From positions 5,607,659 through 5,671,658 of the forward strand of contig NC_067283.1 of the NCBI RefSeq assembly GCF_020740795.1: a DNA stretch of 64,000 nucleotides, in the 5' to 3' direction. This document shows, in pieces, positions 25,006 through 46,210 of this stretch (positions are counted from its first letter, which is position 1; every line of letters starts with the position of its first letter). The notes beneath the pieces were generated by a model, which saw nothing but the letters and a program-made list of their open reading frames with translations, was not told the origin of the DNA and searched no databases. A program made the position numbers and the translations under genes. This stretch comes from Apus apus. Lineage: Eukaryota; Chordata; Aves; Apodiformes; Apodidae.

Positions 25006-25817
25006 CTGGATCAGAGGAAGAAGAACATATTCAGCCAAATTATCTGAGTGACTGAGGAATGACTGGATAGGATTAAGGAGCACTAGTTAGTTACTCACTG
25101 TCCTGCACGTGAAAATGAAATCATGTGCTGCTTTCTTTGCAAAGGACTGACAGCTCCCCAGCAGCATGGGAGCAGAGACCTCCTAGCACCTCCCAAGATG
25201 CTGTGAAGATCAGACTCTATTATCTCAATCTACATGCCCACACACACACATCTGCACGTATGCACACCCCAGGAAGGGCTGAAACCCCAGTTTATCACCA
25301 CCATTGCAAATATAGTGCCTGCAAGCAAGTGCTCCATGGCACGTTGCATCCCACACAACCCTTCCCAGCAAGGTCCACCTGCACAGCATCTCTGTTGAAA
25401 ATCAGTGCACTCTCCAGCTCCAGGGAACCTTTTGTTTGGGCAGTGCATGTTAGAGATGCTGCAGAGCAAATGGTACAACAGGGCTGCAAGCCAGGCCTTT
25501 CCTTCAGGCTTTCCCTCTCTGTGCAGGTTTCTCAGGATGTAAAGCCACTTGAAAGCTTCATATTCATGCAAATGTACCTCCTCTTATGCAAATCGGCAAT
25601 CAGCTTGATTTCCACTCCCAGGAAGTCAGCGATTAACGTGGAAAATCAAGGCTAAAGCAAACGGGGGTTTAAGTCCCCTTGGTGAAGTGTGCAGCGAGAT
25701 GTCCAGCTGTGCAAGGAAGGGCCCCAGTGGGGGGCTTCAAGGGTGGGGAGGGTTTGGCTCCTGCCTGCAGCAAGAATGAGGAGCAGAGCAAGTCTGAATG
25801 CTTTTTATTCTACTTAC

Positions 25818-25927
25818 CTGCTGAGGCAATGGGCTGCAGTAGTGACCCAATGGGTGCTGATGAGGGTTCCACCACAGATGTGAGAACAGTACCCTGGGAA
25901 GTCAGCATAGGCAATCAGAAAGGATAC
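25818..25927 (-). pseudogene. Decayed elastase/chymotrypsin-family protease: catalytic histidine exon
   Basis: The minus strand has acceptor tttgatccag, then a 110-base exon encoding VSFLIAYADFPG, HICGGTLISTHW and VTTAAHCLSR, then a consensus donor gtaagta. It matches elastase exon 3, which begins VS after WPWQ and ends just after TAAHC. The catalytic histidine motif is intact here. It pairs in order and strand with the serine exon 0.8 kb downstream. The middle exons are not clearly recognisable; a weak hint (ALIFNRDAVQ) lies near 25390-25430 on the minus strand. The activation-peptide exon was not found, and a CR1 copy starts 18 bases beyond the acceptor side. Confidence 0.75.
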
Positions 25928-25944
25928 CTGGATCAAACAACAGC

Positions 25945-26165
25945 ATATATTGGGAAGAAATGTTTTTTTTGTGAGGGTGGTGAGACACTGGAACAGGTTG
26001 CCCAAGGAAGTTGTGGATGTCCCATCTCTGGAAGTGTTCAAGGCCAGGTTGGATGGGGCTTGGAGAAACCTGGTCTATGGGAGGTGTCCCTGCCCATGCA
26101 GGGGGTTGGAACTAGCTGACCTTTGAGAGTCCCTTCCAATCCAAACCATTCTGTGATTCTGTGAT
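25945..26165 (+). mobile_element. CR1 LINE 3' fragment
   Basis: Sense-oriented CR1 3' end: gtgagggtggtgagacactg, ggttgcccaaggaagttgtg, ggtgtccctgcccatgcag, ending ccattctgtgattctgtgat. It abuts the relic protease exon, suggesting it landed in or next to that gene's intron. Confidence 0.95.
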
Positions 26166-26559: not shown

Positions 26560-26775
26560 CTCCATCCTGGAGGTTGTCTTCAAAGCCTTCATGGCTGAAA
26601 AATACCATAAACGGGCTTCAAGATACAAAGCTCTCACACAAATTGACTTGTTACCCATGCTCCCTACCTTGGCTGCCAGGTGGTTGAGCACCAACCTAAA
26701 TCCCCTTGTTTCTTCAGGGGGAAGGTTTCCTCCCTCTCCTCCCTCAGAAAACTGCCAGATCTCATGTAGATATTC
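26560..26775 (-). pseudogene. TTC21A: TTC21A relic: probable C-terminal exon
   Basis: After acceptor ctctctactgcag the minus strand reads EYLHEIWQFSEGG, then GFRLVLNHLAAK, SICVRALYLEA and MKALKTTSRM. The TTC21 C-terminus contains AWKYS...GFKLAFNYLKDKK...EICNDVL...ILEKARRSLRP. The shared pattern W-[KQ]-[YF]-S, then G-F-[KR]-L-x-x-N-[YH]-L and I-C-x-x-x-L fits with a small insertion. No stop sits at the expected LRP end, so the reading frame has lost its terminus. It is the lowest-coordinate member of a series of minus-strand TTC21A-like exons, as expected for the 3' end. Confidence 0.5.
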
Positions 26776-26904
26776 CTGCAGTAGAGAGAAACCCTTAAAG
26801 CTGGAACTATTGTATCCACATTAGGTTTTGCCCTAGCCCAGTAACTGCAGAGAAGAAATTTATATGCACTAATGTGCATCACTTAGAGGTTGAGAGATTC
26901 ACCC

Positions 26905-27978
26905 TTTCCCAGCTCAAATGCTATTGGCTGGACAGTTGGGCCCAAAGAGTGGTGGTCATTGGAGTAAAATCCAGCTGGGGTTGGTCACAAGTGGTGTTCC
27001 TCAGGGGTCGGTGTTGGGAATGTTTCTGTTTAACATCTTTATTGATGATCTTGATAAGGACATGGGCTGTATTATCAGTAAGTCTGCAGATGACACCAAG
27101 CTAGGTGGGAGTGTTGATCTGCATGAGGATAGGGAGGCTCTACAGAGAGACTTGGATAGATGAGATCATTGGACTAATGTTAATGGTCTGGGCTTCAACA
27201 ACGCCAAGTGCTGGGTCCTGCACTTGGGCCACAACAACCCCAGGCAACACTCCAGGCTTGGGGAAGTGGCTGGAAAGTGTCTGGCAGAAAAGGTCTTGGG
27301 GGTTCTCATTGACAAGTGGCTAAACATGAGCCAGTGTGTGCCCAGGTGGCCAAGAAAGCCCCTGGCATCCTGGCTTGGATTAGAAATAGTGTGACCAGCA
27401 GAAGTAGAGAGGTGATTGTCCCCCTGTGCTCAGCACTGGTGAGGCCACACCTGGAGTGTTGTGTCCAGTTTTGGGCACCTCAATTCAAGGGAGATATTGA
27501 GGTGCTGGAACGAGGACAGAGGAGGGCAACGAAGCTGGTGAAGGGCCTAGAGAATCAATCTGATGAGGAATGCTTGAAGGAGCTGGGAATGTTCAGTCTG
27601 AGGAAGATGTGGCTGAGGGGGGACCTCATCAGTCCCTACAACTACCTGAAAGGTCACTGTAGAGAGGTTGGTGCTGGTCTCTTCTCACAGGTAATTAGCA
27701 ACAGAGCAAGAGGGAATGGCTTTGAGCTGCAACAGGGCAGGTTTAGACTGGACATTAGGAAAATAACCTCACAGAAAGAGTGGTCAGACACTGGAATAGG
27801 CTGCCCAGGGAGGTGGTTGGATCACCATCCCTGGGTGTGTTTAAAGGTTGGTTGGATGTGGTGTTGGTGGATGTGGTTTAGAGGAGAACTTTGTAGAGTA
27901 GGGATGATGGTTGGACTCAGTGATCCCAAGGATCTTTTCCTACCTGAATGGTTCTCTAATTCTTTGATTCTGTGATTC
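26905..27978 (+). mobile_element. CR1 LINE, 1.1 kb copy with reverse-transcriptase remnant
   Basis: The longest of the younger CR1 copies here. It begins in the reverse-transcriptase region: [20 protein letters not shown], then [13 protein letters not shown], where active elements have a FVDD/FADD-type box. It continues through the 3' end of ORF2 ([43 protein letters not shown]) and ends tctgtgattc. Frameshifts and stops break it, so it is inactive. Confidence 0.95.
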
Positions 27979-28722
27979 AGCTGCAACTTACCCAGGCAAC
28001 TAAGAAGAACCAGAAACTGAACCAGAAAATGAAGCATCTTTAACGAAGCAGTAGCATTTTTCCAAGAAAAAAATCTTTTTATACAAAAATATCAAATAGA
28101 ACCTGTGTCTAAATTTGTTATTAATACAATTTATCTATACTCATAAATCATTAAACTCAACCAAAATGTTCTCTATGTGGAAAAAAAAAAAAAGGGGGAG
28201 CAGTGAAGTGTTCAAGGTAGAGCCCAAGGTTACACAAACACCTCCACGCTGCAGAGTTCCCACAGGGCCATGAAGGAGAAAAAAACCTGATAAATTGGGA
28301 GTGCTCTCAGACCAAGTCAAAACCAAAGCAGTGCAAACCCAGGCTCAAGAACCCAGCAGTTCCTATGAGCAGTTGCTGATGCACAAGTTCTATTCCCTTG
28401 CAATAAATTTATCTGTCAGTCCATTTGTCTTCTACTGAATGTAACATAAGCTGATCTTTGTCAATTGGATTAAAAGAGCAATAGCAAACAGGGAGGTTCA
28501 GCGTTGGCTGGGCATGTTAAACAGACCTTGGCTGGATGTGCTGAGTCCTTTTTTGGGATCCTTTTCTGCTCCCTCCTCCCTGCTGAAGGAGTTTTCCTCT
28601 GCATCCCCCAAATTGCTGGCTCTCAGTGGCAGGAGGGGAGGTAGGGAGCTGGACTATGGCCAAGGGGGATGCTGCAGCTTGAAGAAACCTGGGATATATC
28701 TGAGGAATGGAAAAGGTCCCAT
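27979..28722. other. Non-coding interval within the decayed TTC21A locus
   Basis: No recognisable exon. A minus-strand tract near 28185 is a T/A homopolymer, and a purine-rich patch lies around 28620-28680. Nothing here supports a gene. Confidence 0.4.
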
Positions 28723-28790
28723 AATCACAGAATGGTTGAGGATGGAGGTCTGGAGGTCATCTGTCATTTCTAGTAAGCCCCCAATACAGC
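28723..28790 (-). mobile_element. Short CR1 3' end fragment
   Basis: The plus strand shows tcacagaatggttgaggatg followed by ggaggtcatctg, a decayed antisense CR1 terminus of about 70 bases. Confidence 0.6.
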
Positions 28791-28984
28791 ATTAAAAACC
28801 ACTGGACATAAACCTGCACTTGTATCCTTTTATCTTGCACCAGAATTCCTGTGGACAGGTCCCTAGGATCTCAAAATATAAAGGAGTTTATATATTAAAT
28901 TTTTACATTAGGGCAACATGTTATTGACAAACCAGATGGAACATCTGAATCGAAAGTTCTTGTCATTAAAACACCTGCAGAAGC

Positions 28985-29140
28985 TTTTCAGCTTGTCTGA
29001 ACATTGAGCACAGAAGATACAAAACCATGTCCCACGTTACAGGCAAAGATACAATTTCCAGGAATAACCTTTTCCAGCTGGGTGCTGTCAATGTGACAAC
29101 ACATTTCCTCAGTGCAGAATGAAGAATTTGGATGATTCAA
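28985..29140 (-). pseudogene. TTC21A: Possible TTC21A relic exon (late TPR region)
   Basis: The minus strand reads CTEEMCCHIDSTQLEKVIPG, then NCIFACNVGHG and VSSVLNVQTS. The TTC21A/B segment around residue 1100 has the pattern QLRxxxxxCxxAT...V-x-x-A-L-N/G-x-F-T. Q-L, C, A, V, L, N and T agree with one inserted residue. Its position between the relic exons at 33.5 kb and 26.6 kb is right for the gene order. Alone the match would be too weak; the collinearity is what makes it worth listing. Confidence 0.33.
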
Positions 29141-29997
29141 CTCTGAACTATTCAAAAAGCTGCTAGCCAAATCCAAGTCAAAGGGCTCCTTTATGCAGCA
29201 AAACATGTTACCCATTTTAATACATTCAATGATTGATGATTAGTTTTAAGCATTCATGTAGCTCTACTAAAATCATTAAGCATATATATATATATTTGTG
29301 CAGAGGAAGCATGTAATTACACATTTTGTTGGATCAGAACCAGAGCATTCAACTACTTGTGTTTTCACACTGCTCTTTCCCAGAATTGATTTGACTACCT
29401 TGAACATCTTGGGAGAGGAGCAAAACATCAATAATTAAAATTATTTATGCACAACACGGAAGTGAAAGTATAAATCTGGAGAAATAATGTCCTGTTTATT
29501 TACTTCTAGCAGCACAGTAGCTTGATCTTGTCTCCAGGTTCTGCAGAACTCTCAGGACATGATTCAATCTTGTTTCAGTTTTTTAAGTAACTCGAGCTAG
29601 AAAGCAGTTCACTGAAATCCACTGGTTTTATAACTCTTTAGACTTATGAGTGTGATTTTCTACAAGCAAATACACTGTGCAGTTAAAAAGAATTAGTCTG
29701 TGAAACTTTATAAATACTGGTCCTCCAAACTCCACTGAAATCAATGGAAAAGTTTGGTATTAATGACATCAGAATCTGACCCAGTGTGTTTACTGGAAAA
29801 GTTCACTTTGACCTTAAGTAAAGAAGAAAAAGCACAAGATAAACAGCTTACAATCTGTCTCTTTACAGGCCTTAGTCAACAAGGAAAAAAGTAGCAAACA
29901 CATTTGTGTAGAAGTATTCTAATACTCTTCTTAATTTAATTTCAAAGCTTCTAGTTTAAAGTCAAGAAGAAAATGCTACTCATTGTGGAGGAAAAAA

Positions 29998-30409
29998 CAA
30001 GGTGAAAAAGGCTGAGAGTTGAGGTTGTTCAGCCTGGAGAAGAGAAGGCTCCAGGGAGACCTGAGAGCACCTTCCAGTGCCTGAAGGGGCTCCAGGAAAG
30101 CTGGGGAGGGGCTTTTGACAAGAGCTTGTAGTGAGAGGAAAAGGGGTAATGGATTAAACGTTGAAGAGAGGAGATTTAGGTTAGACATTAGGAGGAAATT
30201 CTTTAGTGTGAGGGTGATGAGACCCTGGCCCAGGTTGCCCAGGGAAGCTGTGGCTGCCCCATCCCTGGCAGTGTTGAAGGGCAGGTTGGATGGGGCTTGG
30301 AGCAACCTGGGCTGGTGGGAGGTGTCCCTGCCCATGCAGGGGGTTGGAACTGGGTGATCTTTAAGGTCCTTTCCAACTCAAACCATTCTATGATTCTATG
30401 ATTCTATGA
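29998..30409 (+). mobile_element. CR1 LINE 3' fragment
   Basis: Sense-oriented: gttcagcctggagaagagaa, ccagtgcctgaaggggctcc, gtgagggtgatgagaccctg. It ends in a triple ttctatgattctatgattc tail. It is well preserved. Confidence 0.96.
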
Positions 30410-31797
30410 TAGCAAAGACAATTTAAAAAGGCATTCTGATACATCCCCTCTCCATGTTCATCGTTAATAAAGAAAACCCCAGGCTTTCTACAGAAGTGAC
30501 CAATTCACACTGACCAACTGATGAAGTGATCAGGAGAGCTGGGACACTGACTAACTCCATGCTCTGCATCTTCAGTATCACCAAGTCCAAGTCAGAGCCT
30601 GAACTCCAGAGGTTTGGTTGGCTCAAAGGGAATTTTTCTACATTTAACTTCAGACCCAGAGCTCCTTCTGTGCCAGTAACTACATCATACCAGAACTACA
30701 ACATTTCCTTCTGCTGTCCACATTGTGAGACTGTTTGCTCAGTTTCTGGTGCAGAAAACTCACTCCTATTAGTTATAAGCAGTCTGGCAGAAAAGTTGTG
30801 GTCATGTAGCACATGAAGGGATAGAGTCCAAGAGAATTCAGACAGATCTGATTCATATTGGCTCTTTGGCCACACTCACTGCTCTTTCTAGATTTGTAAA
30901 ATTATCTCAGAGCTTAATTAGATCGTCCTATGTGCCTATTTGAAAAGATTAGAGAGGGATCAGTCTTCTCAATATGAAGTTTCCATGTTTACCTATGAAA
31001 AGCACCATGGAAAATAAAAGTCAATTTAAAAAAAAAGAGTGATATTTGCAGTAAGCACACACCTGTATGCAAGCTTATAACCAATAACTGGATAAATTTC
31101 TTCAGATGTTTAACTTCTTAAAATATTGATGGACATAGAGGTTTTCTCACAGCTATGCCATCCTTTAATTTAAAGCTTCACAGTTCTTACAGTGTTACAG
31201 ATGACGTCCTTGCCAGTTCTGATGCACAGATGAATGCAAAATCAACCATTTAAAGAAGAGAGAAATCAGGCACCAACCCTGTGACCTCTGCCAAGGAAGG
31301 AGGAAGTTACCCCTGGAGGAGAGTGTTTGTTGACTTTTCCCCAAGTAACACAACTCTTGCACAGAATCATGACTGCTTAAATAGCTGGTTTCTGCTTCTA
31401 TGCTTAGACAAAGAGTGGTTCTGCAGCTCTTGTAGTCCTTTTGGCCAGGTACTGAGTGCATTTCAACTCAGTCAATGTGTTGCTGGGAACTGGCCAATTC
31501 AAATCTCTCTAGGACACAGATGCCAACTTCTCTCCCAACTTCTGCCTTAAGCGTCGCAGTTGATGCTTCTCACACTCACCCTGAAATCCCAGCAAATCCG
31601 TGAGCTTTACTAAATGTTCCCTTTGGGAAACAGTGAGCAGGAGAACAGCTGGGCTGTGCCAGATGCTAACCCTGTTGTTTAACACAGTTCACAAAGACAC
31701 CTGTACTGCAGTGCTGGTGACAAAATAGTGAAGAGCATTACTGAGGAAGAGCAGCATTTCCTGCAACAACTGCAGACTGGAGGGAAGTCCTTTCACA

Positions 31798-32050
31798 GGA
31801 TCACAGCATCATAGAATCATCCTGGTTGGAAGGGACCTTGAAGATCATCAAGTCCAACCATAACCTAAATTCCCGCTACCATAACCTAATTTACCCATTC
31901 AATGCTTAAATCATGTCACTAAGCTCTGTATCTATATTTATTTTAAATACCTCCTGAGATGGTGACTCCACCACCTCCCTGGGCAGCTTGTTCCACTGTT
32001 CAACAACTCTTTCAGTAAAGAAATTATTTCTAATATCTTTGAGCAACCAG
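31798..32050 (-). mobile_element. CR1 LINE 3' fragment
   Basis: The plus strand shows atcatagaatcatcctggtt, ggaagggaccttgaagatca, tccaaccataacctaaattc and caccacctccctgggcagc. This is antisense CR1 of the variant with a longer spacer, as at 41491. Confidence 0.93.
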
Positions 32051-33439
32051 CAGGGATCATTTCTTGGAGCAGCAACCAGCACTGGAGTGTTGGCTCAGCC
32101 ACTCTCCAGTTACAAGTACTTTACATAGCTCAGAAGTGACAATCAGTCAAGCTCCATCAGCTGTGCCAAGGGCAGTGTCACACACAGGGCTGAGCTGCTC
32201 TAGCAGCTTGTTGGTGCCAAAAAAATAGTAACTTGTTTTCACGCTGTCCCTGGTAACAAGGTCTCTACTTGCTCTGATTTCTGGAAATTTTCCTCTCACC
32301 TGGTGAAATGATTTGATTCACTAACCTGGGGAGAAGAAATATTCATATTTTTGCTGGTTATTTTTCTGTCATTTCAGAAATTGAACGAGGCAGGTACAGA
32401 ATGGGATGATTTTCAGAGCCTGTGCAAAGAGGCAGGTGAGACCACGTGGAACAGCAGGAGGAAGAGCAGGACCCTCCCATTTCAGCACAGCCAGTTCTTA
32501 AAAGAGCTTGAGTTTGTATAATGTATTTAGATATCAATGTTCAGAAGTAAAAAAAAATAACACATCTCCATAATGAACATTTTATTAAGTATTTCATTCA
32601 GTGCTGCAAAGACAATGCAGTGCAGGCTGAAAGATCTGTGCCAGAAACTCTCTACTGTGTCTTCACATATTTAACAGATCCCAGTCACTTACACCCTTAG
32701 AGACTTGCTCTGGGCAATCAAGGCATAAAGAAATCACTAAAGACCTGAGTTAAACAGATTTCAGTTACAAACAGTTTGGTCTTGAGCATTCTGAATGATG
32801 CAGCAAAAGAAGAGCTTCTCATCCAATTAATTATATAGTCCAAATCAGCTGTGTGTAATTGTATTTTGATACATCATTTACAGATGCATATTAAATGTGC
32901 AACCCTATAATTATAACCTCTCATTTTAAAGCCAAATGCCAAAAAGATCTAAAGCTAAAAAGCAGACTAAGAACTACTTGGACTTAGATACACAACTGGA
33001 AAACTCCACATTAGTAGAATATAGAAGTCATATGTTTAACTTATATGTGTAAAAAATGCTTTGAAATCCCTCAAATAAACAGGTGCTCTTTACAATATGT
33101 TACAGAACATATTTTATTTCTCTGACTACATTATGGAAAAAGGTTTTGGTCAGAATCTTGGCTCAGTGAAATAATTTAAGACAGGATTTCTTTCCTAATG
33201 TTTGTAGATGGAGGAATATTTGCAATCAAAGCTCTTGTGTTAAGTAGCAGCAGTTGGGATTTTCAGATCAACACACTTACATGTGGAGCATCCGTTTCAC
33301 TGTACTTACAGCTTTGCCCACCTTCATGCTCCAGTACTTTCCAAAAGAAGTCTGGATTTATTAAGAAGTTTGCATTTTTACCAGTTCTACCTTGTAAGCA
33401 AGTCTGAAACCCCTAATTTCATATTTGTGCACATGAAGA
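32051..33439. other. Non-coding interval within the decayed TTC21A locus
   Basis: AT-rich sequence with no recognisable family similarity. One plus-strand 55-base frame at 32388-32442 is bounded by splice-like sites, but nothing else supports it. Confidence 0.4.
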
Positions 33440-33676
33440 AATAACATTTAGCAAACTGAGCCTTAAAGCAGTCACATAAACTGCACAGAGGTTCTCCAGC
33501 ACTGCTCTGAAAATCCCCAATCCACAAATATTCCTTGGCATGCCTTGCCAGCAGTAGGGGCCTTTCAGGAATTATATGCAGGTTCCACAAAGAATCATGT
33601 TTCTTCACCTTTTCAAAGAAAAATGTAGCTTTACCAAGGTTATCACTTCTCAGCAAATCAAATCATGTTTTCATGG
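33440..33676 (-). pseudogene. TTC21A: TTC21A relic exon with in-frame stop
   Basis: After acceptor gtaacttttcag the minus strand reads MKT-stop-FDLLRSDNLGKATFFFEK, then VKKHDS and later EYLWIGD and CFKAQFAK. The family segment is LIDLLRRSGKLEDIPAFFEL, AKK, then Y-L-W-[YH]-x-G and F-N-K-A-R-K. The DLLR, S, L, FFE and KK residues align. A TGA interrupts the frame just before DLLR, at a position where the family has Arg or Lys. It lies downstream (on the minus strand) of the 36.1 kb relic exon, as required for residues near 980. Confidence 0.52.
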
Positions 33677-35639
33677 CTGAAAAGTTACCTAAAAATTAAA
33701 AAGCAGTAGAGTATTTTTTATCTCTACCTTACAATAAATCAGGTCCTTTCAAATCTGGCAAAAATTAATTATTGTCTTAAATAATGCAGGATGTTTTGTT
33801 TTGAGAGCTGCAATTATTAAGATATAGTAACACTGCTTATATCTTGGGAAAAGCATAAGGTTTTAAAAAGAAATAATGGCAGAGCCACAGGGCCAAAAAG
33901 AATTCAGGTGCTGCTAGTATGTCCAGCTTTTTTAAGTAGAAAGCTCTTCCAGAAAACATCAGGCCTATTCATATTCTATATGTGACACTACAGAAAGTCC
34001 TGAGAAATTCTGGATTTTTCCCAAAAGGGGAAAATTTTGTTGGAGAAATTAAGGAAACAGAGTTGTCACATTTCCACAAGTTAATTTTTTAAAACTTAAG
34101 AGTGGAAATCTGAACAAACACACAATCTTCAAGCTTACATAATGTTATATACCTGGTGATTTTTACACAACATTCTGGTAAAGGTTTATTGCTTGTTCAT
34201 GCTTCTGTTCCCTGAACACGAGATCTGCCACCCTCTAGAAGGTTAAAACTTGCAAAAATACAGGGAGATGCAGAAAGAAAAAGCCCGGGCATTGAGCAAT
34301 GGTGGAAATTCAGTGATTTTAAATCCTATCAGAATGCATCATAATTACCATATCAACAAGCATGTGGGACATTTCCACTTTGCAGGGAGAGGTCCGAACC
34401 CATCATCTGGTGTCCCACTGTAATGGATGGAGCAGTGTCACCACTTTGGCACAAAATTACCCACAAAACCCCAAACATTTCTTCAATTCTCGTACATGTG
34501 CACAGAGTGAATCTTTTTTCTGTCCTAAAAAGCCTGCATTTGGGGGGATACAGAGCTCTGATTTTCATAATTCCATTACTTCACTCCTTTTCCACTCCAT
34601 TTTCTGGGAAGAAAAAAAACCATAGTGATGCTCACCTATCATTATTATTACTTTCATGTAAAAATAGTGTGATGGTGGGTAGACGGGGAACATTTATTGG
34701 CCCTGGATAATCAATCATCCAAATTAAAATAAGTCATCTTCAGTTCTATCTGAGAAAATAAGAAGTAATTAAAAATGAAGTATTTCGATAACAATTTTAA
34801 TAAGTATCAGGACCCTCTTATTTTCTCTCTACTGAGCTCTATCATAGAAGACAGAGCAAATCAATTATTTTCAATGCAATTTCAATCTACTTTTGTAATT
34901 AAATCAAAGATGGATTTCCCCATTAGCACAACTATTGCAGTATCCAAGTAATTATGAGTAATCAGCAAAGGATATTCTCTACTGATTTTCCCTGTGCATC
35001 ATTAATTATCTGAAGTGACAGGGCTAACATTATTCCTATTATGAATAAACCACTAAAGGAAACGAGGAGGAAGTAAAATACAAACAATAATAAGCTGGCC
35101 CCTCTTCAAAAATCAGTGTAATCCTGAAAAAATGTTAATAGCAGTTCTATCTAAATGAAGCTGCACGTGTCTGGTAGACATCAAAGCTTGCAGTATGTTG
35201 CATCTCATTAGCTCTCAGTAAAAAGTGGATGGAATTCATTTCTAATTCAATGCTATTTGCTGCCAGTTAATGGCTCTGAGAATCAGTCATTCACAAATCT
35301 AAATGTGACTTTTCCCAAACCAGTATTTTATGGGTTTTAAGAACTAGCTTTTATTGCTAGTAGAAAACCACATCTGAGCAATTCTCTTTGTTGTGTGATA
35401 TCATTTTCACATTTGTTATATGGTACTGTCTTCTGATGATTTACTATATTACACATACACTTTAAAATATTTTTCAGTCTGATCTATTTTATTGAATAGA
35501 TTAATAAGTAAAAAATGGCTAACATGGCTGCATTTCCTTTTTGTGTTTGTGACCCTTTTTGGCTCTTGTTCCATTCAAGTGTCAGAAATATGATTTGATA
35601 ATTTATCCATGGTGATTCTATGGTTTTGAAAAATGAATA
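33677..35639. other. AT-rich non-coding interval
   Basis: Nothing exon-like was recognised between two relic exons. It is taken as decayed TTC21A intron sequence by position only. Confidence 0.4.
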
Positions 35640-35878
35640 AATATTGGTTACAACACAGGAAGTTACACCTTAACATGAGGAAAAAATTATTTACTGTGAG
35701 GGTGATGGAGCCCTGGGACAGGCTGCCCAGAGAGGCTGTGGAGTCTCCTTCTCTGGAGACTTCCAAGACCCATCTGGATGTTTTCCTGTGTGATCTGCCC
35801 TGTGTGATCCTGCTGCAGCAGGGGGGTTGGACTTGATGGTCTTCAGAGGTCACTTCCAACCCTATGATTCCATGATTT
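35640..35878 (+). mobile_element. CR1 LINE 3' fragment
   Basis: Sense-oriented: agttacaccttaacatgagg, gtgagggtgatggagccctg, ggctgcccagagaggctgtg, ending tatgattccatgatt. Its subfamily is like the antisense copy at 62992. It lies 110 bases from the relic exon at 35988. Confidence 0.94.
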
Positions 35879-35987
35879 TCTTTTCTATATTTTTGAGGAC
35901 ACAACACTAACAGAGCCATTTCTCTCCCTTATCTTGTATGTAGATACTATGAATCAGATGTTGATTGAGATTTTTAAAAAGACTTGC

Positions 35988-36167
35988 TTTACTATCTGTT
36001 GGAGAATATGTTAATGCATTTTTATAGCTTTCAGTAACTTGTACACAGTCCTTCTGACCCAGATAGTGCTGGACATTAATCAGTGCTGCCAGCTTCTTCT
36101 GAGGAGAAATGGATCTTGGCTGCTCCAAAGGAACAGGTTTCAGTGTTCTCTGTTCCATTTCAAAAGC
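35988..36167 (-). pseudogene. TTC21A: TTC21A relic exon, best preserved
   Basis: The minus strand has acceptor ttgttacag, then exactly 60 codons beginning AFEMEQRTLKPVPLEQP, continuing ISPQKKLAALI, VTESYKNALTYSPTDSK. Human TTC21A, as I recall it, has LKRVPLEQPEMIPSQKQLAA followed by AVQSYKDVFSYLPTDNK in the same spacing, minus three residues deleted in frame. TTC21B is clearly more distant (VQMEQP). The donor position reads AAA|GCAAGT: either a GC-AG intron or a mutated GT. TTC21A encodes an IFT139-like TPR protein of intraflagellar transport and sperm flagella. This is the anchor for reading the whole locus as decayed TTC21A. Confidence 0.78.
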
Positions 36168-36239
36168 CTGTAACAATCCTGAACAGTGTACAAGAGATTC
36201 ATGAAAACAAAATACTAACTGCAACAATGTCTGTCAGTT

Positions 36240-36345
36240 TTTTAGAGCAGCCTTTTGCTTGTATTGGGTCCAGTTTTGAGCTCCTCAAGGCAAGAAAGAG
36301 TCCAGTAAAGGGCCACCAAAATGACAAGGGGGCTGGAGCCTAGAG
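36240..36345 (+). mobile_element. CR1 LINE internal fragment
   Basis: Sense CR1 text tgggtccagttttgagctcc and agtaaagggccaccaaaatg. The piece is separated from a 3' end at 36500-36596 by about 150 bases of unrelated or decayed sequence. Confidence 0.75.
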
Positions 36346-36499
36346 AGTTAATCAGCAGAATACATCTCCAGACTCCCGTGGGAGTGATTCAGGCACTTAA
36401 ACATAGGCTCATACAGCAATTTCATGTGCCCCAGAATATCTGACACATCCTTGCAGGGCTGGCAGCATGACACAGGACCTAAGTCTAGACATGGTCCTG

Positions 36500-36596
36500 T
36501 GCAACTGGCTCTAGGTGGCCCTGCTTGAGCACTGGGCTTGGAAAAGATGACCTCCAGAGATCCCTTCCCACCTAAACCATTCTGTGATTCCATGGA
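36500..36596 (+). mobile_element. CR1 LINE 3' end fragment
   Basis: Sense CR1 terminus: aactggctctaggtggccct, gatgacctccagagatccct, ending accattctgtgattccatg. It may belong to the same insertion as 36240-36345. Confidence 0.85.
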
Positions 36597-37818
36597 AGAC
36601 TTTCTGAAGCTTTCAGGTAACTTAATCCAAATACTATTCAAGTTATTTCTGATGCCTGCACTACTCCTTGACTGCTATCCATGCCATTTGCCTGCTCCTT
36701 CATCAAGCAGCCCAGCTTAAATGCTGGAACGTTTCCCAGTGCTCTGTTTGTCCAGGAAATACCTTTCCCTACCAACCCGAACAGCTCTGATAGCAGTGGC
36801 AGAATAGCACAGGCAAATGAATCAATTTGTCTCTGCAAGTCTCAGTAATAAGAAAAATAAGGCTATTAAAGACATGCTCTACTCAATTCAGTTGCACACT
36901 AGAGCTTTGGAAACACCAGAACTTTCTTTAACAGTGAACATCAATATGTTACCTACATTAAATGGGAATTCCCTTTTGAGAACACAAGAGGAAGCTTGAA
37001 AGGCACGATGACAGTTCACCAACATCAACAAAACTGGATGCAACTGAACCTTTGCCTCTGCCTGGCAACTTATATGTGTAGAAATATCTTTATTTATGCT
37101 TCTCCAGGGTTGCAACATTCAATTATTTACAATTGAGGTGATACTGTTAACAAGCCAATAATAATTTAAGATTTTAATGCACTGATACACATGAAAACAG
37201 TCTTATCATTGTTATGGAGACAACTGCTTTTAGAATTTCTGTTCATGAGCACCCTGTGCAAGTCCTCAGAGAGGTGTAAACAAGTATGACTGAAAACCTT
37301 GACAGATTTATTATTACTTGCCAGTGAAATGGATAATCTTTTTGAATGCATCATCATCCAGGACTAAATTAAACTGCTTGTATGTTGGCTTCTAGTGTCC
37401 CTGGAGATCTCCCAAAGTATGAGAAGTAAGGACTTACCCCTCCTTCCCTTGGAAGCTGCTCTTAAGCCCCAGCAGCATAGCAGCTATGGCTGTGCCCAGC
37501 CCTGGGCTGTGGCCCTGGTCTGGATTTGTTGGCTTAGCCAGCTAGAAGAGGACAGTGCTCAGGCCCTAACACCCTGCCAGTGTCCAACACACTGGGCTGC
37601 ACAAACTGCAGTAGCTGCCCAGTGCAGAGAAGGGAACCACCCTCTGGCCAGTGTGCTCAGTGGAGACTACGACGCTGCTGATCTGACCAAATGCAGGCGT
37701 TTATGTCAGATGAGCCAAAAAGTTCTCCACATTCTAGACCTGCATTGACTATTATGGCAGGTTTGACACCTAAAGCTCAACTCATTGACCTGCACGTAGC
37801 TGTCTCGGACCATCTGAG
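36597..37818. other. Non-coding interval with a GC-richer patch
   Basis: The segment 37395-37745 is GC-richer than its surroundings and has a 117-codon plus-strand frame, but no recognised domain. It ends 75 bases before a CR1 copy. It could be an unrecognised repeat; I cannot assign it. Confidence 0.35.
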
Positions 37819-38375
37819 ATCATAGAAACACAGAATGGTTTGAGTTGGAAGGGACCTTAAAGATCATCTACTTCCAACCCCTTGCATGGGCAGGGACAAC
37901 TCCCACTAGACCAGGTTGCTCCAAGCCCCATCCAACCTGCCCTTCAACACTGCCAGGGAAGGAGCTTAAACAGCTTCTCTGGGCAACCTGTGCCAGTGTC
38001 TCACCACCCTCACACTAAAGAATTTCTTCCTAATGTCTTACCTAAATCTTGCCTCTCCCAGTTTTGATCTATTACCTCTTGGCCTCTCACTACAAGCTTT
38101 ACCTTGTCCCAAGCCCCTCCCCAGCTTTCCTGGAGCCCCTTCAGGCACTGGAAGGTGCTCTAAGGTCACCATGGAACCTTTTCTTCTCCAGGCTGAACTC
38201 CCTCAGCCTGTCTCCACAGCAGAGTTGCTCTAGCACTCTGATCATCCTGGTGGCCCTTCTCTGCACCCTCTCCAACAGCTCCATGTCTTCCCTGTGCTGA
38301 GGGCTCCAGAGCTGTGCACAGCACCCCAGGTGGGGTCTCACCAGAGCAGAGTAGAGGGGCAGAATCAAGACAAGA
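37819..38375 (-). mobile_element. CR1 LINE 3' fragment
   Basis: The plus strand begins catagaaacacagaatggtt and runs through the antisense 3' UTR to the end of ORF2 (ccttctctgcaccctctcca, cagcaccccaggtggggtct). The minus frame keeps [18 protein letters not shown], a typical CR1 C-terminal ORF2 motif. Confidence 0.96.
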
Positions 38376-39546
38376 GAGGTCTTGTAAATCATCTGCATAA
38401 GTTTGAGATGAAATTAATCTCCTTAAGAAAATGCAGTTTAAACAGGTTTGATCTACTAGATGTTTTTCCTCTTGTTTTTGTACAATGAATTTCTGTAATC
38501 TGTTCTCAGAAATGCCTAGTTCCTATTCTCAGTAATTTTGACCAAAACATACTGTTTGTTTAGAGTCAACTTATTTGATCATTTTAACATTCGTTATAGA
38601 AATACTGTTACACAAGTATTTTGTATTGATAACAAGCTAAGATTATTGATAAAGACATTTTTCCTGATTCTTAATTTTTCTACCTAATTCAACTCATTCA
38701 CTCCGAGTTACAAGCTTGCCGAGTTCAGAGGGTTAATATTTGAAAGTATTTCCTCCTTTGAAATTTTGATTTTGTTATGTTGACTCCTTTATCACTTCTG
38801 ATGAATTCTACAGGAAACAGTTCTGAAAGAAGCCAGAGATCTTTATTCACATTGCACAATTCTTCTGCCATACTGAACAATCCTTAATTACAGGAGCAAC
38901 AGCCAAGAAGTGCCTGTTTTTCTCCACTGACTGAAACAAAGGAACTTAAAACCAACTCGGGGCAGCTCTGTATCCTGTATCTACATATCTAATTGTATTT
39001 TAGAATGGTCAGGACACATTTAATATATCAACTTTCATTTACAAAGGAACCTTTAGAAAACACTGATATTGCAAGGCAGTTGTAATTGCTAAGCATACAA
39101 AGAGCTTTGAAAAACAAGCATGTACAGTTTACAGTTCTCTGCAGAGTCTTTCAGTTCCCTGTTACATTGTTTCAATTCCATTACCATGAATGATAAATGA
39201 CTTTATTTTACAAATTCAGTATCTGCAAATGCTAAGGCCTCGTTTTGCACAACTGACGTAACAACTGCATTATTTCTAGTGGCTTGAAGCCTTTTTTTTT
39301 TTCAAACAGAATTTATTTCTAATCACTTGCCAATTGTCATGTTTTTAAACCTGCATTAGAATTAGCTGGTTTTATAATTGACTGACTTCATTATAAAAGG
39401 AAAATCCTCTGTTGGTGAAGTATTATGGAGGATGCCTAAAATATAACTCTTAGCCTCTTACTGACAACTATATAATCCTGTTTTCACTGTCTAATACACA
39501 ATTAATTATGTAAAATGTTGAAAGTAAAGTTTCAAGAAGTATTTAC

Positions 39547-39718
39547 CAAGAAGCTCGACAAGAATTTTCATCCTCCAGTTAAGGAAGAACCAGTTTTGAC
39601 TAAACCAGTGTGCAGGTAGGTAACCTTTGTGCAATGTCACAGGTGTGACCAGACAGCCCTCTTTGTATATTTGCAGAGACTCGTGTAAATGCAGATTGTT
39701 TTCTGTATCATGCAATTC
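39547..39718 (-). pseudogene. TTC21A: Possible TTC21A relic exon, assignment uncertain
   Basis: The minus strand has a strong acceptor (tttttccctcag), a 172-base open frame (ELHDTENNLHLHESLQIYK ... VELLG) and a donor gtaaat. The frame can be laid on two different TTC21A segments: near residue 285-350 (EPENPSLHL ... ATELGYLFILK) or near residue 620 (GELHEATKVMQDTINEF). Each gives scattered agreement, so I cannot choose. The exon-like architecture and minus orientation fit the locus. Confidence 0.33.
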
Positions 39719-41269
39719 CTGAGGGAAAAAGAATCATGGACAGAAATACAGGAAGCAGAGGCTTGAAACTCTTCTTAACCTCCTTGTACCTCTTTCTCAG
39801 TAGGTCAGGATTTTCCTCTTAGTGGTATAGTCTTGTACGACCTGTTCAGAAAGCCTTTGAATTCCAGATTCCTTGCCTCTAGCTTATATTCAGATCAAAG
39901 AAACTCCAAAGTTACAACCAAATATAAGTAGACCTGATGAAACAGTTTTACCTCCAACCCCTATTTTATTTTCCCACTGGAAAAATAAAATGAGGAAAAA
40001 GTAAACATTCTTCCTCATCAGAAAAAAAGTTTCAGTTTAATGTAGAAATACCCCCCCACACACACACAAAAAATCAATTAATTTTCCCCAGATTATAGTA
40101 AGCAAGAACTGTAATCTATATCATTATAATTTTAGGTACAGTGTACATGAGTTTTTGCATATTTATATTGTATTATATTTGGCTAAGAGTCTGATGAACT
40201 AATTTTACTTTCTAAATAGTGAGAACTTCTGTCTTGTTATGGATGAAATGCCACTTACACACTTCCTCTCTAGGTCCAGGAGGCATTTTCACAGCACTGT
40301 GTCAAGCCATAAAAAACCCCACATTCCTGCATAATGTAATTAATTAGTCTCTCTATTTTTCCTGTTTCTTTTGTTTTCCAGCTCTAAACCAGCTTCATTA
40401 CCTAAAAAGAAATATCCAAACAAAAACGTGCCACTTGTGTTAAACGTTGAAAAGTCATGCAAAGACTAAGAGAGCAGAATGAAAAAAGCCTCCTAATCCT
40501 TGAAACACGTGTAAGGGACTTTTCAGATTGTGTTGAAATCAAAACCATTCAACACTTGCCAGGCTGGAAAGTGAATTAGTAAATTTTTATCCTTTAGAAA
40601 GGATGTATTTTTTTAATGGACTGTTTTTGATACAGGATGTAAATCTCCTGTTGCCTTGTAAGGGGCTTGTGCTCAGTCCCAGCTGCTGCTGAACCTCGGG
40701 GCTCTCCTGTCTGAGCTGCAAGTGTTCTGTGTCTTGCATTCCTAAAATTCATTACCTCTAAAAGAAGAAATAGCTACTAGTTAACGTTCTGAAACACGCT
40801 GGCTCTAATGTTCTAGAAACTCCCATGCAACGTGGCAACTTGAAACTTCAGGGTAGCCCAGAATTATCTTTGAGGTAGCTACATGAAAATAAAACTTGGT
40901 TTCTCTCTGTGAGAATACCCTAATGTGGTCACTCCGAGCCCTGCTATGCAATGCTCTTGTTCAGCAATTTATTGAAGGCTCTGAGCTTCAATTGTTAGTT
41001 GACAAATTGAATAGTCAAGCCTTGCTTAAGTGATGAATAGATATGAGCTAAATTATTTTTCTAAATAAATAAAAATGTGTTGCCAAAGTGTGGTCTGGAA
41101 CAGATTTGATAGATTCAGTGATTCTAGTGACAGCAGTGCTATTTTTGGTACTATTTTATTTAGCAGATTAGAGAAATTTACTTAAAGCATGCCTATTTTT
41201 TTTTTCCTAGATTTGCTTTGTTCTACAACTCCTAATTTAACCTGTGGATGGAACATTGGGCTAATGATT

Positions 41270-41455
41270 ATCCAAGTTGCTGACTGTTGAAACTTGTGAC
41301 AACTAGTACAAAAACCCACCAGCAAAAAACCCTTGTCTATATTTTTACAATTATTATGTGCATAAATGAATTCCAAAAGACAACAGAATGACACACTCAG
41401 ATGGTTCCTTTTGGCTTTTCCTAACTGTAAGACAGCACTTTGCATTTCCCCAGCA
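41270..41455 (-). pseudogene. TTC21A: TTC21A relic exon with IYAH motif
   Basis: The minus strand reads GEMQSAVLQLGKAKRNH, then LSVSFCCLLEFIYAH and NNCKNIDKG. TTC21A residues about 55-110 read QDAISDLESIRHH, DVSLCSTMALIYAH, KRCEIIDRE; TTC21B has SLLALIYAH. The motif V-S-[LF]-C...IYAH..C..ID agrees almost without gaps. A CR1 copy begins at 41491, and no acceptor is visible upstream of the exon, so the insertion or decay probably removed it. Confidence 0.72.
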
Positions 41456-41490
41456 GAGACATTGCAGATGGTTGGTTGAGCCAGATGATA

Positions 41491-41763
41491 TCATAGAATC
41501 ACAGCTCATTTGAAAAGACCTTTAAGATCATCAAGTCCAACCATAACCTAACTCCTGAAACCATTAACCTAAACCCACCAAGTCCAGTGTTTAAACCATG
41601 TCCCCCAGCACCACATCTACACATCTTCTCATCTCCTCCAGAGGTGGTGATTCAACCACCTCCCTGGGCAGCCTATTCCAGTGTTTAATTTCCCTTTCAG
41701 TGAAGAAGTTCCTTATAATATCTAATCTAAACCTCCCCTGGCACAACTTGAGCCCATTTCAGA
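41491..41763 (-). mobile_element. CR1 LINE 3' fragment (left half of an inverted pair)
   Basis: The plus strand shows tcatagaatcacagctcatt, tttaagatcatcaagtccaa and accacctccctgggcagcct, an antisense CR1 3' end. It stops at ttgagcccatttcag, where a second CR1 starts in the opposite direction. Confidence 0.93.
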
Positions 41764-41930
41764 TTGCCCAAGGAGGTTGTGGAAGCCCCATCCCTGGAAG
41801 TGTTCAAGGCCAGGTTGGATGAGGCTCTAAGCAACCTGATCTAGTGGGAGGTGTCCCTGCCTGTTCAGGGGGGATGGATCTAGATAACCATTAAGGTCCC
41901 TTCCAACCCTAACCTTTCTATGATTCCTGT
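41762..41930 (+). mobile_element. CR1 LINE 3' fragment (right half of an inverted pair)
   Basis: Sense CR1: attgcccaaggaggttgtgg, gtgttcaaggccaggttgga, ending aacctttctatgattc. Its 5'-truncated edge directly abuts the truncated edge of the antisense copy. Confidence 0.94.
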
Positions 41931-42439
41931 GGTTTTCTCTTGTCCTGATAAGCAATCACTTAAAAAAGGTATTTGTATAAATTAACTCCGAGCCATCATC
42001 TTGGATCAAGGAGGTTTGTTTCATTTGCATGCTTGGCCACAACAAGCTGCTCTCAGTGCACACGTGTTGTTGTCTGAACGACGTGGAACAGCAAAGAGTA
42101 ACGACCCATGAACACTGACATTAAGAACAGCTGCTTAGGGCTAAACCACAGCTACTTCTAGCCCACTCTCAACCTGCCACAGCAGCTCTAAATCGCCTGG
42201 CAAAGACAAGGACTGGGACAAGTGTAAATTATTTGTCCCCTCAGACGGTCCCCCAGCCTTCAGGTGGCTTCAGCTCAGAAAATATGTTTTGCTGGATTGG
42301 TTTCTGTGTACTTGTTAACCCTTCTCAGAGTCTTCTTCAGTGAACTTGCCCTTGGATCCAAAGAAACTCTTGGCATCACAACGTCCTGTTGTGGAGAGCT
42401 GCAGAACTCAGTTAACTCTTGCATGAAAAATCACCTCCT

Positions 42440-43430
42440 TTTGCTTACTTTGGATGTGTGCCCTCATTGTTTCAACAGTCCCCTTGTTATTAAATGGAAA
42501 GTCAGCAAACACTCAGTTCCCAACTACCCTCTCCACACCAGTTGTGATTTCACAGCACATTTTCTCTTTAACTGTCTCTCTTCCCAATTAAAAAGCCCTC
42601 GTTTAATGCTCATTCCCTATGTGGTAACTCGTGATACCTGTAATCATCCCTGCTGCCCTTTTTTCAAGCTTTCCTATTTCTACTATTTATCTTTTTGAAA
42701 TAGGACGTGTGAGAAAACTACGAGTTGATACAGTAAATCAACGCTGACCATTGTTTTCCTGATAGTTCTTTTGGATTAACATGCATTATTATGGATTTGC
42801 TTTTTTGGCTACTTCTGATTTCTGAAATGAGACATTGTAAACTCTAGCTCTCACTTCAAACTGCTACTGAACAGCTCAGAGCCCACTATTTCACATGTGG
42901 AATTAGCCAGGATTTTCCCCGAGATGTATCATTTTATATCTATCTACACCTAATTATACTGGTGGTTTTATTGCCCACCTAATCTTCCAAGGTCCTTCTG
43001 CAGTTCTGCAATTAATCCTTAGTTTTGCTATCCTGAATAATCCTGTGACATCAGTACACTTTGTCATCTCACTGCTTATCTCTCTTTTTTCCAGGACTTT
43101 TAGAATATGAAGAAAAGCAGGATAAAACAGTGGAGGGTTATGTTTGTCTGTTTTTTGATAACTCTTTGGATGATCTTTCCAAGCAGTGATCATTCACTCC
43201 TATAATCTACTTTTTAACTTTTAACCACCCATCTAAATAAAGATATCTTACAGTATTGCCACCTAGTTTCCTTGATAAACCCTTGATAAGGGGTTTCTTG
43301 AAATCTAAACAACCAGATCACTCCTTTCTGCATGTTTATTAATATCTCTAGGAACTCCAACAGATGTGGGAGACAGGACACCCCTTTATCAGAGCCAGGC
43401 TGATATTCCCAAGAATATAATACTCAGGTA
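42440..43430 (-). mobile_element. Ancient, heavily diverged CR1-like LINE relic
   Basis: The plus strand carries decayed antisense phrases typical of old amniote CR1: taatcatccctgctgccctt, gctatcctgaataatcctg, ctcactgcttatctctcttt followed by ttccag. Near the 5' side are tctaggaactccaacagatg, gacaggacacccctttatca and gagccaggctga. The order matches the antisense reverse-transcriptase region of an old CR1. It is much older than the neighbouring copies. Confidence 0.6.
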
Positions 43431-44248
43431 CCCAGTAAAACTTTCATTTCTCATAATTTTTATTACTTTGTTGACAGAGTCTTACAGACCTTCCCTTTCA
43501 GATTCTGTCTAGAAATAAAATTACACGGCCAACACTGCAGCTCTCCATTGTCACAATTATTATATGAGACCTTCTGAAGAAAAGGAATTAAAAAAAATAT
43601 ATATAATGATGTGATAAGTTTCCCAAGTATGTAGCAGAAAAATGTTTGGCACAATTTTGTGTTTTTCTCAATACCTAGGTGCCCTTCTACCACATGCTCA
43701 AGGAGTACAGTGCACAGATCTGCAATCACAGCTTAGAGATGACACTGTTAAAAGTTACTTAAAAAGGCTTCTGAGAATATCCTGGTCTTTCTTTGGAGAA
43801 GAAATAAGCCAGTATGTATGGCTCTCAAGTATAAATAGGTGTTGAAGCGACAAGGAATTAAAGACTTTCAGTTGGAAGCAAAGGAAGAGGATGGAGAAAG
43901 CAAGTTTATTTTTTTCTCTTCTGTCTTTATGCATTACACTTGAACCACAGAAATTATGTGGATGGATCCTTTTGATAAATGACATCTTGGAGGTGAGAGC
44001 AGTAATTACCAAGTTTTACTAAAATTGATGCTTTTATACTGGAATGAAAGTATTCGGGCAGGAAATAAAACTAGCACTTTAACTATATCCCCATAGTGAT
44101 GCTTCCAATTATTACTATTACTCTAAAAGCTTTCAGAACTTTTCCATTAATGAATAAAGGCAGAATCAAAATTCATCCTAAGTAAAACAGAGTGGAACAG
44201 ACATGAAATGTCAGGGGAATGGAAACATCACCACTTCTTCTTAATTAC
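43431..44248. other. Non-coding interval
   Basis: AT-rich DNA between the old CR1 relic and the TTC21A exon-2-like relic. One minus-strand frame near 43.70 kb shows EHVVEGHL, reminiscent of a later TTC21A segment, but it is out of order. Confidence 0.35.
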
Positions 44249-44378
44249 CGAAACACAAGGTTCTCTGTGTACTGGAAAACAGCAACACTAGACCACTGGT
44301 TTTCCTCTTCAGCTCCAAGGCTGCCGATGGCCTCAGCTGGTGGAAATACTCTTCTTGAGTGTCATACAGAATCTACAC
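44249..44378 (-). pseudogene. TTC21A: TTC21A relic: N-terminal coding exon with in-frame stop
   Basis: The minus strand has acceptor cagttcctgcag, then 130 bases: V-stop-ILYDTQEEYFHQLRPSAALEL, then KTSGLVLLFSS, then donor gtaatt. TTC21A residues about 11-50 read GIIYYSQEKYFHHVQQAAAV and SNDPVLKFFKAYG. The Y-x-[ST]-QE-x-YFH core is the family signature near the N-terminus. A TAG replaces the residue before ILY. The exon lies 1.5 kb from the GORASP1 start on the opposite strand, as expected for the head-to-head arrangement known in mammals. Confidence 0.68.
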
Positions 44379-44835: not shown

Positions 44836-45600
44836 TCTCCTCAAGGGCTTCTCTTCAGCCCTTTCTCCTCAGCGCTGCTTCTCCTCAACCCTTCTCTCCT
44901 CAGCCCTGCTTCTCCACAGCCCTTCTCTCCTCAGCCCTGCTTCTCCACAGCCCTTCTCTCCTCAGCCCTGCTTCTCCACAGCCCTGCTTCTCCACAGCCC
45001 TTCTCTCCTCAGCCTTGCTTCTCCACAGCCCTGCTTCTCCACAGCCCTTCTCTCCTCAGCCTTGCTTCTCCACAGCCCTGCTTCTCCACAGCCCTTCTCT
45101 CCTCAGCCTTTCTCAGGCCTTCTCTCCTCAGCCCTTGTCTCCTCAACCCTTCTCCTCAACCCTTCTCTCCTCAGCCCTTCTTAGCACTGCTTCTCCCCAG
45201 CCCTGCTTCTCCTCAACCCTTCTCTCCCCAGCTCTGCTTCTCCCCAGCCCTTCTCAGCCTTTCTCTTCTCAGCCTTTCTCAGACCTTCTCTCCTCAGTGC
45301 TGCCTCTCCCCAGCCCTTCTCTCCCCAGCCCTGCTTCTCCTCAACCCTTCTCTCCCCAGCCCTTCTCTCCTCAACCCGCTTCATCCTCAGCCCTTCTCTC
45401 CCCAGCCCTGCTTCTCCTCAGCCTTTCTCTTCTCAGCCTTTCTCAGGCCTTCTCTCCTCAGCCCTGCCTCTCCTCAGTGCTGCTTCTCCCCAGCCCTTCT
45501 CTCCCCAGCCTTGATTCTCCTCAGCCTTTCTCAGCCCTTCTCTCCCCAACCCTTCTCTCCCACCCCTTCTCCCCAGCCCCTCCCCCCAGCGCTCCCCCCC
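44836..45600. repeat. Polypyrimidine minisatellite, CTTCTC(T)CCTCAGCC-type units
   Basis: About 0.75 kb of irregular tandem units such as cttctctcctcagccctg and cttctccacagccctg, almost free of purines except for the ag of each CAG. Higher-order blocks are visible: a 60-base combination of three units recurs at 44930-45110. The long open frames across it are low-complexity artefacts (SPQPFSPQPC repeats). The array ends where the GORASP1 CpG island begins, about 240 bases before its ATG. Confidence 0.93.
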
Positions 45601-46210
45601 AGCCGCGCTGCCGCTTCCCGCCCCAGCCCCCGCCAGGCCGCCGAGCCGAGCGGAGCTGCTCGCCCGCTCCCCCGCCCGCCCCGCGCCGCCGCGCTCGGCG
45701 CTCGCTTGCTCGGGCCTGTGACGCCCTCAGCCGAGGGCGCGGCGGGCGATGCTCGGAGCCGCCGCCGCTGCCGCCTGAGCGTCCCGGTCCGTCCCGTCCC
45801 GTCGTGTCCCGGCCCGTCCCGGCCCGCCCGCTGCCGTCGGGCATGGGGCTGGGCTCCAGCTCCGAGCTCCCCAACGGCGGCGCCGAGGGATTCCACGTCC
45901 ACGGGGTGAGGCGGCCGCTGAGGCGGTGGGGGGGGGGTGGGGAGGGGGTCCCGCTTTCCCCCTGCCCGCCCGTGGCGGCTCCGCCAGGCCCAGCCCCGCT
46001 CCCGGCAGCGGCGGGGCCGGCTGTGCCGGCGGTCCCCGGGTGCCCTGTCCCCCGGCTGCCGGCCGGGACCTGCCACGGCGGCTGGGGAGGAGCGGTGCCG
46101 GTGGGCGCCGAGGGCCCGTCCCGCGGCTGCAGCGGGCGGGCAGCCCCGGCCTGCGGGGCCCGGGCAGCAGGGCAGCCCGGGGGAGCTGTGGGGAACGGTC
46201 CTTCTTCTCT
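45600..46210 (+). promoter_or_regulatory. CpG island covering GORASP1 first exon
   Basis: Very GC- and CpG-rich sequence flanks the GORASP1 start codon on both sides, including GGCCCGTCCCGGCCCG-type runs just upstream. No TATA box. This is a housekeeping-type promoter. In mammals GORASP1 and TTC21A are head-to-head, so this island was probably once bidirectional. Confidence 0.7.

Follow-up and report, generated by a model that had tools for sequence, protein, structure and literature searches.

Sperm and cilium genes are known to have been lost in birds before. STK33, a gene linked to spermatogenesis, is described in neognath birds as having decayed in place through exon deletions, stops and indels, with no second copy, and there too redundancy was proposed (PMC4509753). 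The sperm genes CatSper and CatSper-beta are reported as lost from chicken and zebra finch, leaving short coding fragments in the syntenic place (PMC2572835), and the ciliary genes WDR93 and CFAP46 are described as lost in birds via disruptions and segmental deletions (PMC10445033). As for TTC21A, its mutations are reported to malform the sperm flagellum in both mouse and human (Liu et al. 2019, as cited in PMC9984195), and deletion of Thm2/Ttc21a is described as leaving mice without overt structural defect when it occurs alone and as having an effect in combination with a Thm1/Ttc21b null allele (PMC9149932).

In the bird genome studied here, all that is left of TTC21A is a few broken exons at its usual location, with TTC21B intact, and TTC21A therefore looks like another sperm/cilium gene discarded in bird evolution. 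TTC21A is an IFT-A protein, a paralogue of TTC21B (IFT139), whose gene in mammals lies between GORASP1 and CSRNP1. The window, that is, the whole 64-kb stretch of DNA analysed, was searched by tblastn with partial sequences of GORASP1, GORASP2 and CSRNP1. These searches placed GORASP1 head-to-head with the relic at 45843-51459 on the plus strand (exon matches, query residues up to 205) and the matched part of a convergent CSRNP1 at 9180-12524, also on the plus strand (three HSPs of 209, 113 and 100 bits). The gene starting at 45843 fits GORASP1 better than GORASP2, its first exon matching GORASP1 only. With these flanks, the relic is one copy in the syntenic place expected from the ancestral order, and the slot proposed by an earlier sequence-only reading is borne out.

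Between the two neighbours, relics of TTC21A lie in collinear order on the minus strand, spanning 30.8-44.4 kb; exons 1, 2, 19, 21, 22 and 23 can be assigned securely, exon 3 only tentatively. The query was an approximate human TTC21A sequence, and exon borders and numbering were taken from TTC21B, which has 28 exons. The collinear TTC21A chain scored 138.3, against a shuffled mean of 22.3 (SD 6.0, maximum 44.3; 400 shuffled strands from 200 shuffles), 26.7 on the plus strand, and 18.8 and 11.6 on reversed sequence. In the window, the five best tblastn HSPs of TTC21A all fall on the minus strand, in protein order, which upholds the collinearity claimed earlier. Pfam identifies the domains independently: its TT21 N, 4th and 5th models likewise hit minus-strand frames in gene order.

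Individual exons were aligned across the region against 40 shuffles and within their expected interval against 100 or 200 shuffles. Because controls occasionally yield single-exon scores of 60-68 (68 and 60 for the best shuffles of exons 22 and 8, 60 for exon 14 when the sequence was reversed, and 62 for the best shuffle of exon 13 aligned with the TTC21B peptide), exons 1, 2, 22 and 23 rest on position and splice sites besides score. The best preserved is exon 19 (35988-36167, as all following on the minus strand), which covers residues 863-925 with 29/60 identities and scores 137 against 48 for the best of 40 shuffles, with a whole-genome E of 1.4e-8 and a Pfam ARM_TT21_4th E of 1.1e-4. Exon 21 (34154-34231; residues 964-989, 17/26 identical, 38.9 bits) contains one stop and scores 89 against a best shuffle of 48. 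Exon 22 (33548-33686; residues 991-1040, 22/45 identical, one stop, two frameshifts) scores 68, a value equalled region-wide by the best of 40 shuffles, while within its interval none of 200 shuffles did as well (maximum 47). Exon 23 (30836-30934; residues 1041-1075, 19/33 identical, two stops) scores 72 against a best shuffle of 49, with 0/200 interval shuffles as good, and Pfam ARM_TT21_5th gives an E of 3.3e-6 over this exon together with the exon 21 stretch.

Towards the N-terminus, exon 1 (44277-44372; human residues 12-43, 13/32 identical, 30.0 bits) scores 66 against 44, and exon 2 (41344-41445; residues 55-87, 13/33 identical, Pfam ARM_TT21_N E 0.0038) scores 67 against 51, in each case relative to the best of 40 shuffles and with 0/200 interval shuffles as good. 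Exon 3 (40304-40387; residues 97-122, 13/26 identical, one stop) stays tentative: six of 200 interval shuffles equal it, and its region-wide score of 44 falls below the plus-strand control of 46. The pieces assigned to exons 21 (34.2 kb) and 23 (30.9 kb), both clear, were absent from the list of fragments in the sequence-only reading.

All five main peptide strings of that reading are present in the sequence where it placed them, and those at 44.3, 41.35, 36.1 and 33.5 kb proved to be TTC21A homology (exons 1, 2, 19 and 22). The fifth, GFRLVLNHL at 26.6 kb, failed as exon 27: its score of 32 is close to the mean of 31.6 for region-wide shuffles, interval shuffles were as good in 7/100 and 32/100 cases in two tests with the TTC21A peptide and in 6/100 with that of TTC21B, and AG is missing at the position corresponding to the acceptor of exon 27 in TTC21B. 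The two weaker fragments fell away as well, the best exon score near 39.6 kb (exon 5, 39611) being matched by 43/100 shuffles and that near 29.0 kb (exon 24, 29042) by 88/100. A possible exon 12 at 36378-36491 was rejected: only 1/100 shuffles matched it when the TTC21A peptide was used, yet this was one of 15 exons tried in that interval, and with the TTC21B peptide 100/100 shuffles were as good. An HSP of 18.9 bits at 38395-38499 (residues 265-309), part of the 138.3 chain, corresponds to exon 7 and was rejected as well, being equalled by 41/100 shuffles. So were the other exons of 4-18, 20 and 24-28, for which TTC21A peptides gave their lowest counts, exon 12 aside, with exons 11 (6/100) and 27 (7/100), and TTC21B peptides with exons 27 (6/100) and 17 (9/100). 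Chance resemblance in intergenic DNA does account for the fragments at 26.6, 39.6 and 29.0 kb, but the Pfam scans, the chain test, splice-site homology and genome-wide ranking together refute it for the six core exons, and as an account of the relic it is vanishingly improbable.

The relic also matches TTC21B, with a chain score of 76.7 exceeding the shuffle maximum of 38.5 for that query, as would be expected if it were not the TTC21A ortholog but a degenerate TTC21B duplicate or retrocopy. The TTC21A fit is nevertheless clearly better (138.3 vs 76.7), with 64.3 vs 48.1 bits for exon 19 and 38.9 vs 26.6 for exon 21; exon 23 barely discriminates (32.7 vs 32.0). Judged by chain score and by the bits of exons 19 and 21, the relic is nearer to TTC21A than to TTC21B. 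Its position between GORASP1 and CSRNP1 is also that of TTC21A in the mammalian order. Acceptor AG stands at the exact TTC21B-homologous nucleotide in four of five testable exons, at an AG frequency of 8.05%, and TTC21B exon borders coincide with those of the relic in the exons compared; since the exons are spread across 14 kb with acceptors at homologous nucleotides, the relic is not a retrocopy. Derivation from TTC21B is accordingly very unlikely. TTC21B itself is intact at C7:19.569-19.604 Mb, with neither stop nor frameshift, and accounts for 24 of the 25 matches in the whole-genome search, the relic being the remaining one. Searching the assembly, which may be incomplete, with the protein and with four Pfam models of TT21 revealed no second TTC21A locus, only the best candidates being scored.

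Continued use of TTC21A in a shortened or rapidly evolving form, its missing exons merely diverged, would agree with the open frame of exon 19 across 60 codons and with exon 21, which retains both acceptor AG and donor GT. Against it stand disabling lesions of several kinds. Stops, four in 229 codons of the relic, lie in exons 21, 22 and 23, and exon 22 has its frameshifts. Exon 1 offers no start: a TAG immediately precedes the homology, and none of the 30 upstream codons is an in-frame ATG. Splice sites are altered, with TG at the site of the TTC21B acceptor AG in exon 2 and donor GC in exon 19 (GT in TTC21B) and exon 22, even though exons 19, 22 and 23 retain their acceptor AG. Moreover, 21 of 28 exons are undetectable at the relic locus, whereas the same method detects 28/28 at the paralogous TTC21B locus, and the C-terminal TT21 domain (PF25063) has no match within the window. 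Continued use of the gene is therefore highly improbable.

Exons 24-28, searched at 12.5-30.8 kb, appear only at chance level, as would be expected for a truncated relic; the part of the earlier reading that depends on the 26.6 kb fragment, a relic reaching the C-terminus, is not supported, while the core relic with its lesions is. The middle of the gene (exons 4-18) and its 3' end (exons 24-28) appear to be gone or erased. In a self-comparison of the window, an interspersed repeat at 37819-38305 matched copies at 52.3-52.8 and 30.0-30.4 kb with 82-88% identity; it lies in the gap where exons 4-18 are expected, and by its look we take it to be CR1-like. Rfam and tRNA scans of the window found nothing.

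From sequence evidence, TTC21A between GORASP1 and CSRNP1 is almost certainly a unitary pseudogene, a single syntenic copy that decayed in place. Its inactivation in the lineage of this bird genome is probably old. Point mutations, small indels and the insertion of repeats would account for the decay, with exons 4-18 and 24-28 deleted or eroded past recognition, and the relic would now yield no IFT protein. In cilia and sperm flagella TTC21B may then be the sole IFT139, and its redundancy may have made the loss tolerable. The chances seem about even that TTC21A was lost once and early, before or near the neognath base, in which case most living birds would use TTC21B as the only IFT139 for flagellated sperm and motile cilia. 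A bird without TTC21A would constitute a natural experiment, in which avian TTC21B either assumed the spermatid role or flagellum assembly dispenses with it.

A literature search of limited reach found no published report of TTC21A loss, and the gene would add an IFT-A paralogue to the losses of sperm and cilium genes already described in birds. The described cases differ from it in several respects. STK33 is another gene, and the account of its loss compares 28 neognaths and three palaeognaths (PMC4509753), against one genome here. CatSper is an ion channel, for which the report presents only short fragments, e.g., of 66 aa (PMC2572835), and WDR93 and CFAP46 are described as central-apparatus genes, not IFT-A, with several losses in separate lineages (PMC10445033).

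Between GORASP1 and CSRNP1 the minus strand carries broken exons of TTC21A, and the peptide strings picked out in the sequence-only reading do occur where it placed them. A search of the 64 kb window (C3:5607659-5671658) with human TTC21A, a query that from residue 7 to its end aligns with PDB TTC21B at 1502 bits, returned as its top five HSPs pieces at 44.3 kb (residues 12-43), 41.4 kb (55-91), 36.1 kb (843-928), 34.2 kb (964-989) and 30.9 kb (1041-1075). Each lies on the minus strand, and together they follow the order of the protein. Across 26.0-45.8 kb the highest-scoring collinear chain reached 138.3, against a mean of 22.3 (SD 6.0, maximum 44.3) for 400 strands from 200 dinucleotide shuffles. 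Further controls gave 26.7 (plus strand), 18.8 and 11.6 (reversed sequence), 17.8 and 28.7 (window to the left), 23.1 and 30.4 (window to the right) and 25.9 and 23.5 (other loci); with the paralogue TTC21B as query the chain reached 76.7 against its own shuffle maximum of 38.5. In a Pfam scan of minus-strand frames over 26.0-45.9 kb, stops masked, ARM_TT21_N (at 41.4 kb, E 0.0038), ARM_TT21_4th (at 36.1 kb, E 1.1e-4) and ARM_TT21_5th (E 3.3e-6, in two stretches of which the better lies at 30.9 kb) all kept gene order, two of the three matches lying under Pfam's own cut-off and one at it; the sole further match listed was DUF679 (E 0.14).

The TTC21B gene of this genome, whose 28 exons lie in order on C7, supplied the exon borders, which were transferred to TTC21A by alignment. 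Local alignment tolerant of frameshifts gave six clear exons, with region-wide scores set against the maximum of 40 shuffles: exon 1 (44277-44372; 66 vs 44), exon 2 (41344-41445; 67 vs 51), exon 19 (35988-36167; 137 vs 48), exon 21 (34154-34231; 89 vs 48), exon 22 (33548-33686; 68, equal to the best shuffle at 68) and exon 23 (30836-30934; 72 vs 49). Within its own interval exon 22 was equalled by none of 200 shuffles (maximum 47), as were exons 1, 2 and 23 in theirs, the interval test covering these four clear exons. Control scores of at least 60 arose occasionally (60 for exon 14 on reversed sequence, 60 for exon 8 in a shuffle, 62 for the TTC21B exon 13 peptide in a shuffle), and support for the middling exons therefore comes from their order and splice sites as well as from score. 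Exon 3 (40304-40387) is a tentative addition, with 6 of 200 interval shuffles as good and a region-wide score of 44 vs 46 on the plus strand. The fragment GFRLVLNHL at 26.6 kb, which had been counted among the relics, scored 32, close to the region-wide shuffle mean of 31.6, was matched or beaten by 7/100 and 32/100 shuffles (6/100 with the TTC21B peptide) and has no AG at the homologous acceptor position; it was rejected on shuffles and acceptor, although its position would fit.

With TTC21A and TTC21B peptides and shuffle controls, 21 of the 28 exons were not accepted in the slot. The same program with TTC21A peptides recovered 28/28 exons in the TTC21B locus (no exon scored below 53, and the plus strand reached at most 50); the exons missing from the slot are therefore lost or eroded, within the method's power. 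Exons 24-28 were sought in the ~13 kb between CSRNP1 and the relic (12530-26000), and none was found.

The exon search was made without splice-site information, and the splice sites agree with it. An acceptor AG stands at the exact TTC21B-homologous nucleotide of exons 19, 21, 22 and 23, and exon 2 has TG there; AG makes up 8.05% of minus-strand dinucleotides, and by our arithmetic four of five by chance has a binomial probability of ~2e-4. Exon 21 keeps the GT donor of TTC21B, whereas exons 19 and 22 have GC in place of the TTC21B GT. The lesions comprise one stop each in exons 21, 22 and tentative exon 3, two in exon 23, two frameshifts in exon 22 and codons missing from exons 19 and 23. No in-frame ATG was found in the 30 codons upstream of exon 1, and a TAG lies immediately 5' of its homology. 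The relic interval contains interspersed repeats, and those of the window resemble avian CR1, which makes a bird the likely source. A 733-base minisatellite (44847-45579; units of 16, 31 or 47 bases, C-/T-rich on the plus strand) separates exon 1 from the GORASP1 start, at the site expected for a shared promoter.

In the whole-genome protein and profile searches the best candidates alone were scored. The TTC21A search gave 25 matches, 24 of them TTC21B (C7, 19.569-19.604 Mb) and the remaining one relic exon 19 (E 1.4e-8). Among best candidates, PF25062 hit TTC21B at five places and also hit the relic; PF25064 hit TTC21B at three places, followed by one in the window with two stops (E 1.9) and six weaker ones (E 2.6-9.2); PF25063 hit TTC21B at five places and a weak one on C4, with no match in the window; and PF25068 hit TTC21B at four places, the relic at E 7.9e-4 and a place on C21. 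The last, a 180-codon open frame at C21:1433433-1433852, lies apart from both TTC21B and the relic and matches ARM_TT21_4th (PF25068) at 34 bits, over the cut-off; it does not appear in the matches that the other TT21 searches listed, and is perhaps a general TPR protein. TTC21B itself aligned over 28 exons (985/1298 residues identical to human) with no stop or frameshift. GORASP1 lies head-to-head with the relic and CSRNP1 is convergent, as first read, and mammalian TTC21A occupies the same slot in the same order.

The six exons are identical to human TTC21A at 113/229 residues (49%) and carry four stops in those 229 codons; in TTC21B the corresponding exons match human TTC21B at 219/269 (81%). 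Simulated neutral decay reached the observed stop density at ~0.2 substitutions per site, and the identity loss corresponds to ~0.13-0.25 if intact TTC21A were 65-81% identical to human, 65% being an assumed value. At an avian rate near 2e-9 per site and year the decay would be roughly 65-125 million years old, with wide error and a bias towards youth because the best-kept exons alone are visible.

We prefer the reading that redundancy with TTC21B would have relaxed constraint on TTC21A and led to its loss. In mice, deletion of Thm2/Ttc21a alone is described as causing no overt structural defect, an effect appearing in combination with a Thm1/Ttc21b null allele (PMC9149932); in human and mouse alike, TTC21A mutations are reported to cause defects of the sperm flagellum (Liu et al. 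2019, cited in PMC9984195). A bird without TTC21A would depend on TTC21B or dispense with the function in spermatids. In the openly accessible literature listed on TTC21A with birds, chicken or pseudogene, titles and abstract openings hold no report of such a loss, and the main texts of the 2014 (PMC4290089) and 2026 (PMC12954441) surveys of missing bird genes do not mention TTC21A in a word search.

STK33 is described as retained in palaeognaths and reduced to remnants in neognaths (PMC4509753). A search with a human STK33 kinase part (133/328 candidates scored, 134 matches listed) gave, among those listed, strong matches at kinase-paralogue level and STK33 resemblance limited to two short C6 pieces: 11868362-11868448 (69% identity across 29 residues with two internal stops reported, which could also come from running into an intron) and the neighbouring 11872772-11872864 (58% over 31 residues). 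Judged by sequence, they are possibly the relic described for neognaths, a hint, short of proof, that this genome belongs to a neognath. The kind of event proposed for TTC21A is already known, with precedents in STK33 (PMC4509753), CatSper (PMC2572835) and WDR93/CFAP46 (PMC10445033).
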